A DNA stretch of 64,000 nucleotides from Gyromitra esculenta. Lineage: Eukaryota > Ascomycota > Pezizomycetes > Pezizales > Discinaceae. Where the stretch lies: assembly GCA_038503075.1 (NCBI GenBank), contig JBCAML010000004.1, forward strand, positions 517,149 through 581,148. The letters run 5' to 3'. The position numbers and the translations under genes are program-made. Of the stretch, positions 1 through 17,472 are shown piece after piece; the stretch's first letter is position 1; each line of letters begins with the position of its first letter. The notes under the pieces were generated by a model. It saw only the letters and a list, made by a program, of their open reading frames with translations. It did no database searches and was not told where the DNA came from.

Positions 1-2740
1 GGGGAGGATCATGGGTTGGGCAGCCACAAACCGGCAGAAAATGACAACGGTGTAGGAGATTTGGGAACTGTGAGAAAAGTACTATTTCTTTCTAGAAACT
101 AGAAAATCCATGCCTTCGAATTTCTAACTCTTGTGGCAGGCACGGTTCACATTTGTGCTTCTTTACGTATGTATCGCCCTTCAGTACCAGACAATTAACT
201 AATATGTATTCTAGAATCCGAGCTTAGTAGCAACCAAAATGTCAATCCTCTTCTTCTACTCAAGCCTCTTTGGAAATTTCACGCACCTTAAACGGTGTAT
301 TTGGATAACGATGCTAGTTGTGGGCATCGGAGGAATTGTATTGACGCTACTAGTATTTTTTCAGTGCCATCCAGTAAGCTTACCGTAAGCCCAAGTGCCT
401 ATTGGTCATTCCTAATAACATGTCAAACTGTAGGTTTCCGCGGCATTTTCAACACATTATACACCTCCACCGAAAGCCACTTGTCTAAATACAATTACAA
501 TTCTTTACGCTGCGGCCCCTTGGAATATCATTACTGATCTGGCTATTCTACTTCTACCCATGCCAGCTTTGACATCGCTTAAATTGCCAAAAAGAGAGAA
601 GATCGTCGTGATAATTTTATTTGCTGGAGGTGGATTGTTAGTGAATCACCTCTTACTCGTGGAATTTCAACAGCTAGGATCCTCGCTGATTAAGATTAAA
701 CAATAGTGTTACTGTCGTGGGTGTTGTACGGATATACTACCTCGACCGAGCTATATTATCTGGGAGTCTTTACTGTAAGCCCAAAACCAACCTCAACAAT
801 TAAACTGCAATAGTATCCTAATATAGCATATACTAGGGGATGGCTCACTATCATTTATGTGGTCCGCAATCGAAGTCAACGTTAGTATAATTTGCGCATC
901 AATCCCAATGCTCAAACCTTTAGTCACATTTCTCATCCCCGGATTCCTCGGCCTATCAGGCCACGTACCGAGCAATGAGAGAAACTACGAGTGTGGACGA
1001 CGTGACTTGAATTCCACATCTACCTACACGAATGGCCATACTATACCTATTCAGTCTGACGACGACACACCAAACATATATACCTCTCAAAGCGCCCCTA
1101 ACATCTCACCTGTTGGTGCTCCAATAAGACAGGTCTGGAAACCGTTGGGCTTAGTTACGATTCTCTTCTTCCTCTGGGGATTCGTGTACGGGCTTCTATG
1201 CGTCCTAAGGAACCAATTCCAAGTTCACTATGATCTCTCTATATCCCAATCATTGGGGCTGCAAGCAGCATATTTTGGGCGAGTGGCTCTCTTATGTAGT
1301 ATGGTGCTGGCTATTAACGCCTTACAGGCCATATTTTTTCACGCCAAGGGTCTTTTCCGGAGTTATATTAAAGAAATATGGCTTCAAAGCTACATTTATC
1401 TCTGGATTGCTAATATACACTTGTAGCACCCTGATCTATTGGCCTGCGGTAATATTGGGTTCGCTCCCTGGATATATCGTAGCAGATATCTTCGCTGGCT
1501 TTGGGGCAGCAACGTTAGTGCCTATCTGAACTATGAAGTTGAGAAGTTAAGCTGAGTATAACACACCTAGACTTGAAACTGCAGCAAACCCTTATGTGGC
1601 TTTGGTTGGTCCTTTGGGTATGGGTGAATCTAGACTCAATATCGCCCAGGGATTTCAGGCGGTTGGCAATATCTGTGCCTCCCTCTTACAATTTCGGCAA
1701 ACCTTTTCCAAGCTGCCAGGTACTCCTACAAGAGAAGTTGCGGATATGAATTGGGCTTTCTTGGCAATTGTTTTCTTCATGACTTCATTGGCAGTCGTAT
1801 TCTATTACTTCGAGCTGCCTGAGCTAAAGTAGATTATATCTATCGTTTCTTTCCAGTACGAGATGCTGATACCAACTCAGGGATTCCGAGTTTCCAACAT
1901 TACAAATGTGCGAGACTGACGACCTCTGGAGAAGTAAATGTGCAATCGGGCCAACACTAGCGGCGGTATCGATTTTTTTATACGTGGGCGCACAAGAGAC
2001 TTTAACAGTGTTTTGGGACAATTACTTTGCAGACATCGGAATAACGTTCGCAGTACTGATCCTCAACTTGATTTGCAACACTGCTAACATAAATTGGTTC
2101 AAGGACGGGAAAGCCCACGCTGGAGTGGGAACTACTCGGAACTGGCATTTTTGCAGTTGGGCGTTTTGTAGCCAGCATCGCCCTACTCTGGCTATGCCCA
2201 CGGATTGTATTGCTAGGATCTGTAGTAGGTTGTGCTATAACTTTAGGACTTGCTACAACACGGACCGGGAGAAGCGCTGCAATATTGCTCATCGTGAATC
2301 GGCTACTTCAAGTATAGGCCCCTCCTCGAGAGTTCAGCCACTGCACTCCTAACTCTTTGCAGTCGAGTATCTTCCCAACTCTTTTCTCAGTTGGTCTTCG
2401 CGGTTTAGGACGCCATACGAAAACTATCTCGGTATATCTTGTGACTGGTATCTCTGGAGGAGCAATCCTCCCAAGTATCTATTTCGCCATAGCGAAACAA
2501 CATGGCTATCACTTCGCAATGTACGTTCCTACGATATATTTTTGCCTCTGCGTACTTTCCCCGCTTTATTGCTACTTCTCCTCGGACCAGAGGTATCGCT
2601 TCGGTTTCCTTATACGCGGTGATACTACCGATCAGTTCAAAAACGTGCCCTCGATGGCTTTAGAAGCGTATCAATACGTGAGGAAAGGGCTGGGGACTAA
2701 GTATCTAGATCCCGACGAGTGCGTCGAAAGAATAGTATGA
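1..2740 (+). CDS. PTH11/rhodopsin-type membrane domain fused to FucP-like MFS permease (5' end outside window)
   Basis: Exons by splice signals and frame: 1-78, 140-166, 215-373, 434-636, 707-774, 837-1278, 1328-1513, 1571-1828, 1881-2045, 2104-2311, 2363-2740; together 724 codons with stop and no internal stop. Exons 1-6 give the fungal rhodopsin-like integral membrane domain: HGLGSH, KMSILFFY, FQCHPVSAAF, a Cys-Leu-Asn segment, APWNIITDLAILLLPMP, GVVRIYYL, WSAIEVNVSIICASIP. After a polar linker of about 60 residues the same exon (837-1278) starts a complete FucP/GluP-type major facilitator domain: LFFLWGFVYGLL, LQAAYFG, KYGFKATF, LETAANPY, RLNIAQGFQAVG, FLYVGAQE, FAVGRFVA, SIFPTLFSVGLRGLGRHTK, ISGGAILPSI. 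No in-frame Met lies between the halves, so the permease has no start of its own. The intron at 1279-1327 begins with GC. The TM1 Asp usual in the family is Cys. Function is inferred: membrane sensor/permease. Confidence 0.85.

Positions 2741-6628: not shown

Positions 6629-8426
<1,798 letters not shown>

Positions 8427-15522: not shown

Positions 15523-17472
<1,950 letters not shown>

Follow-up and report, generated by a model that had tools for sequence, protein, structure and literature searches.

GPR155/LYCHOS joins a transporter-like domain to a seven-transmembrane-helix (7TM) domain and acts as a cholesterol sensor regulating mTORC1, with G-protein signaling that is termed unclear (both from the available portions of PMC12716839). 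How a transporter becomes a receptor is a question already raised by the Snf3/Rgt2 sensors and, for fused proteins, by GPR155. According to the excerpted text of PMC13308352, most fungal G-protein-coupled receptors (GPCRs) are orphan receptors, and the excerpt of PMC4882079 describes Asp46 of the L-fucose permease FucP as a proton-coupling site. Here we describe a gene at the start of a 64,000-nt stretch of the Gyromitra esculenta genome (the window; G000:C4:517149-581148, contig JBCAML010000004.1; genome of 47.1 Mb in 23 contigs) that is predicted to encode a fungal rhodopsin-type domain and a FucP-type permease in a single chain. No description of such a fusion was found among the papers listed in searches of the literature, which lay mostly outside subscription journals, and none appears in the passages seen of four works on fungal GPCRs (PMC12842992, PMC4683645, PMC13308352, and PMC12161586), the first of which refers to gains and losses of MFS_1 at other places in these genomes.

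The gene model was computed by splicing genomic DNA, including sequence fetched from before the window. The start codon lies at C4:516831, 317 bases before the window, and the gene ends at window position 2740; splicing yields 13 exons, 12 introns, and 787 amino acids. An earlier note, made from the letters of the window alone, had proposed that ten introns within positions 1 to 2740 restore one open frame. The splice model recovers all ten and keeps the frame through 2740, but it moves the gene start upstream, with two further exons and two further introns before the window. The predicted product is one 787-residue membrane protein consisting of an N-terminal domain with a putative seven-helix GPCR-like fold, a flexible linker, and a complete FucP-type permease. 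From the usual topology of both folds, the linker would be cytosolic.

Pfam places Fung_rhodopsin (PF20684) at residues 32 to 272 of the spliced chain (E = 1.5e-59; 201.8 bits against a cut-off of 27), covering profile positions 1 to 235 of 237. The match to MFS_1, the major facilitator superfamily (MFS) profile, falls under its curated cut-off of 33.4 in the window protein (28.3 bits; E = 1.1e-6) and over it in a paralog from the same genome (34.8 bits). Stronger evidence for the permease comes from aligning a 55% identical Morchella protein directly with solved FucP (3o7q; E = 2.7e-26), and kinship with FucP in sequence and fold extends over all 12 helices, as expected of a FucP-type MFS protein (FHS family). 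The proposed fusion of a rhodopsin-type domain to a complete FucP-type permease is thus supported by Pfam and by the comparison with FucP, with PF20684 far over its cut-off and MFS_1 detected below its own. The label "PTH11-like", also used in the earlier note, is loose: Pth11 proper carries an extracellular CFEM domain, and none was found among the Pfam matches of the two spliced Gyromitra chains at an E value of 0.001.

The two halves meet inside exon 8, which encodes the last helix of the rhodopsin domain, the linker, permease helix 1, and the start of permease helix 2. From the end of the seventh receptor helix (SIPMLKPL) to the first permease helix there is neither a stop codon nor a methionine, exactly as had been read from the window. 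The features of the gene are as follows, with exons taken from the splice model and introns compared with those of the paralog:

Window -317 to -153 (G000:C4:516831-516995), plus strand: exon 1, with the start codon at -317
Window -96 to -60 (G000:C4:517052-517088), plus strand: exon 2
2 to 69, plus strand: exon 3 of 13, rhodopsin domain; flanking introns common to the paralog
140 to 166, plus strand: exon 4, rhodopsin domain
215 to 373, plus strand: exon 5, rhodopsin domain
434 to 636, plus strand: exon 6, rhodopsin domain; its open frame alone matches PF20684 (E = 2.4e-14)
707 to 774, plus strand: exon 7, rhodopsin domain
837 to 1278, plus strand: exon 8, the junction exon; same exon and flanking introns in the paralog
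1279 to 1327, plus strand: intron with GC-AG boundaries (GCGAGT...TTACAG); GT-AG in the paralog at the same position and phase
1328 to 1513, plus strand: exon 9, permease
1571 to 1828, plus strand: exon 10, permease; after a split codon, starts with the E135-equivalent motif LETAANPY
1881 to 2045, plus strand: exon 11, permease
2104 to 2311, plus strand: exon 12, permease; the preceding intron, 2046 to 2103, is absent in the paralog
2363 to 2740, plus strand: exon 13, C-terminal half of the permease and tail; stop codon at 2738 to 2740

A hidden intron separating the halves was ruled out, as the paralog has the same unbroken exon (373 bases versus 442). A pseudogene was likewise rejected: every apparent frame change coincides with a predicted intron, and the paralog has all of the 12 introns except the one at 2046 to 2103.

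Protein and DNA searches of the Gyromitra genome located this paralog on a second contig, C3 (G000:C3:1758337-1761308). It carries both domains and splices to one chain of 751 amino acids from 12 exons. The two proteins are about 40% identical overall; by region, identity is 123 of 263 aligned residues for the receptor half, 9 of 40 for the linker, and 164 of 429 for the permease half. Each of the 11 introns of the C3 gene has a counterpart in the window gene with matching position and phase (one is offset by a single alignment column), and the window gene has one intron more. Since the shared introns span both halves, both copies descend from one fused ancestor. Two further FucP-type permeases lie on contigs C14 and C18; no rhodopsin half was seen in the reading made of them. 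The stand-alone permease on C18 (G000:C18:467500-474500, minus strand) adjoins a long open frame, which we take to resemble a sugar aldo-keto reductase and which could be a clue to the sugar involved.

The same architecture recurs widely. A search with the whole chain returned 114 proteins: 64 with both Pfam domains, 44 with the permease only (4 fungal and 40 taken as bacterial), and 6 with the rhodopsin domain only. A profile built from 20 fused proteins gave 463 matches, and the best 120 of these 463 all carried both domains, 108 of them new. Among the matches listed in these searches, 172 of 222 distinct proteins have both domains, so the database holds at least 172. The closest among the matches listed is a Morchella importuna (morel) protein, 55% identical over its full length. 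Conversely, PF20684 was absent from the best 120 of 3426 matches to a stand-alone fungal permease. For further analysis the 172 were joined by P0037 and P0071, which are listed with PF20684 only but are long, giving a working set of 174.

Sources of the fused proteins include Penicillium, Aspergillus, Talaromyces, Fonsecaea, Cadophora, Lachnellula, Zymoseptoria, and Trichoderma, as well as Xylographa and Lasallia, both lichen-forming genera, and three entries (P0044, P0050, and P0055) from the basidiomycete Cryptococcus. Their database names include "MFS monosaccharide transporter-like protein," "fucose permease," "Rhodopsin domain-containing protein," and "hypothetical protein." One of them, P0002 (799 amino acids), comes from a contig of 2918 bases; given the 12 introns of the window gene, so short a contig is probably a spliced transcript. 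The earlier note was aware of no described protein in which the two families are joined. The papers listed in the literature searches agree with this; in the database, the architecture is shared by the at least 172 proteins counted here. The single gene is ordinary within its family, and the novelty lies in a widespread and apparently undescribed family.

A simple pattern applied to 164 long fused chains isolated 139 linkers. Only 2 of these 139 are free of methionine, whose absence is thus not a general feature. Many fused proteins have a longer linker, with a median of 132 residues by this rough cut. An FDFV-like pattern precedes the permease in 98 of the 139; the linkers of the window gene, the C3 paralog, and the morel protein contain no match to it, and for that reason the motif is not used for any inference here.

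To place the fused permeases, a tree of permease halves was built from 33 fused rows (31 of the 174 plus the two Gyromitra loci), 17 stand-alone fungal rows (16 of 121 plus the C14 permease), and 10 of the 40 rows taken as bacterial; 7 of 40 chosen fused rows were left out because the cutting pattern missed them. All fused rows formed one clade (support 100/94), and a single change accounted for them in 100% of 200 bootstrap trees. The stand-alone fungal rows formed a separate clade (90/35). The window gene was sister to the morel protein (100/100), and their permease halves are 59% identical over 421 columns. The C3 row sat on a long branch, was flagged as such, and is of unsure placement. 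The two Cryptococcus members included fell inside the other fused rows, a position that may reflect gene transfer. In a tree of receptor halves, the window gene, the morel protein, and the C3 copy grouped together (89/63). That tree held only three rows taken as stand-alone receptors, too few for a test of how the receptor half originated, and one of these, P0072, grouped with fused rows and may itself be a fragment of a fused protein. The claim of one origin accordingly rests on the permease tree.

These results bear on two simpler accounts of the window gene. Gene predictors do merge neighboring genes, and the model presented here was derived from genomic sequence alone, such that two adjacent genes or a prediction artifact could in principle mimic a fusion. 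However, the join lies within one exon without a stop at both loci, neither linker contains a methionine, introns on both sides of the join are common to both loci, the same build is found in the 172 of 222 homologs, and the fused permeases form one clade. Chance fusion is excluded by the 11 of 11 introns shared with the paralog and by the same build in many fungi, and we reject the two-gene or artifact account as exceedingly improbable. The second account is decay of the window copy. The GC-AG intron directly 3' of the junction exon has a GC donor where the paralog has GT; it may splice poorly, and read-through would meet a stop at 1424 to 1426, leaving a truncated 7TM product with one or two permease helices. 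However, GC-AG introns are a known minor class, and the frame stays open in every exon 3' of this one. Together with the 59% identity of the permease half to that of morel, these open exons favor continued translation, and we regard decay as improbable.

To ask what the permease half may do, we placed the sites equivalent to D46 and E135 by alignment to solved FucP. At the D46 site, the fused row P0070 is gapped, leaving 173 of 174 fused rows readable; row P0071 aligns poorly there. E135 is conserved as glutamate in 173 of 173 readable fused rows and in 120 of 120 readable stand-alone fungal rows, whereas 39 of the 40 rows taken as bacterial have glutamine. The D46 site, carried by exon 8, is aspartate in all 121 stand-alone fungal permeases. 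In contrast, it is replaced in 60 of the 173 readable fused rows (N in 37, S in 5, A in 5, Q in 5, G in 4, V in 2, and F in 2), and it is cysteine in the window gene, asparagine in the C3 gene, and glycine in morel. For the 50 fungal rows in the tree, at least nine changes at this site are required. The acidic pair expected of a FucP-type H+ symporter is thus broken in both Gyromitra copies, with E135 kept and D46 lost. From these alignments, proton coupling has likely been lost in the window gene, and sugar transport has possibly been lost as well.

Set beside the computed observations (an open spliced frame, a conserved fusion, a single fused-permease clade, a kept E135-type glutamate, and a changed D46), our preferred reading, held with moderate confidence, is that the protein is a receptor-permease hybrid. 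A sugar of the L-fucose, galactose, or glucose type would enter the pocket of the permease half from outside. Rocking of this half, conveyed by the linker and a common interface in the membrane, would then drive or tune the 7TM half, which would signal to the cell interior, with G proteins as the most likely route. Proton-coupled uptake would probably have been lost in the window gene and in its relative from morel, leaving a sensor, and D46-bearing members may both carry and sense. The ligand-sensing device suggested in the earlier note therefore stands as the best reading, with some support from the changed proton-coupling residue; the sugar as ligand, the contact between the halves, and the signaling itself are what we infer.

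Several points qualify the evidence from D46. The count of nine changes was made on a tree with the D46 column left in. D46 is also absent in 15 of the 40 rows taken as bacterial (N in 12, G in 2, and S in 1). Among the 122 columns fixed in stand-alone permeases, it ranks only 36th by loss in the fused set, 35 being less well kept. The case for D46 loss as a hallmark peculiar to fused proteins is thereby weakened, and given its loss in presumed bacterial relatives, sensing is something we infer. The protein may instead be a sugar transporter first, with the 7TM half as a regulatory, trafficking, or dimer-forming module that does not signal. D46 is kept in 113 of the 173 readable fused proteins and E135 in all of them, the losses in the rows taken as bacterial fit a transporter, the permease half of a model of the Morchella protein closely matches FucP, and many source names denote transporters (others denote a rhodopsin domain or are uninformative). 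The repeated replacement of D46 in the fused set, set against its retention in every stand-alone fungal permease, argues the other way. We consider the regulated carrier less likely than the hybrid but live, above all for D46-bearing members.

For the receptor-permease hybrid we would extend the reading, more tentatively, to the family: fungi may have evolved their own transporter-receptor hybrids once and early, with a Ste2-like 7TM domain and a FucP permease as the ligand-binding half, and the permease of many lineages, including Gyromitra, may then have abandoned proton-driven transport and turned into a pure sugar sensor. If so, the family preserves a series of transitions from carrier to receptor, and its D46-bearing and D46-lacking members offer natural material for studying that change of function. 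By bringing its own sugar permease, such a receptor-like class also points to a likely ligand class. The family occurs in many filamentous fungi, but its members are often labeled as transporters or hypothetical proteins and may therefore escape surveys of receptors.

Ten of the 21 window frames of at least 170 amino acids were scanned (the other 11, including the junction exon, lay outside the scan), and no clear functional link to the fused gene was found among them. The next scanned downstream frame with a Pfam match is an ornithine/lysine N-monooxygenase (6629 to 8344), in two same-frame pieces split by a stop, which points to an intron or a break. About 14 kb past the fused gene, at 16548 to 17309, lies a galactose-1-phosphate uridylyltransferase frame.

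Compared with described systems, the protein begins with an entire PF20684 domain, as in Pth11-like fungal GPCRs, but this domain is followed by a permease and lacks a CFEM domain detectable by Pfam. Relative to E. coli FucP (an L-fucose:H+ symporter; 3o7p, 3o7q), the fungal protein adds an N-terminal 7TM domain, and the window copy has cysteine in place of D46. GPCR-PIPK proteins are best known from oomycetes and amoebae. Like these "GPCR bigrams," as presented in the excerpt of PMC5784254, the fused family places a 7TM domain and a C-terminal second module in one chain, although the partner there is a phospholipid kinase, not a transporter. The Snf3/Rgt2 glucose sensors and other fungal transceptors use a transporter fold as a nutrient receptor (available portion of PMC3824880); however, Snf3/Rgt2 signal via the cytosolic C-terminal tail of one 12-helix chain, whereas in the fused family a 7TM receptor-like domain is joined to the transporter fold. 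GPR155/LYCHOS is built from a PIN-like 10-helix transporter, then a 7TM domain, then DEP, whereas the fungal protein has the 7TM domain first, an MFS/FucP match, and no DEP among Pfam matches at an E value of 0.001. The former is animal and the latter fungal; the likeness is in build only, and the two are presumed to have arisen independently. GPR155/LYCHOS, which likewise combines a transporter fold with a 7TM receptor-like domain in one chain and is linked to sensing, is nonetheless the nearest idea found in print.
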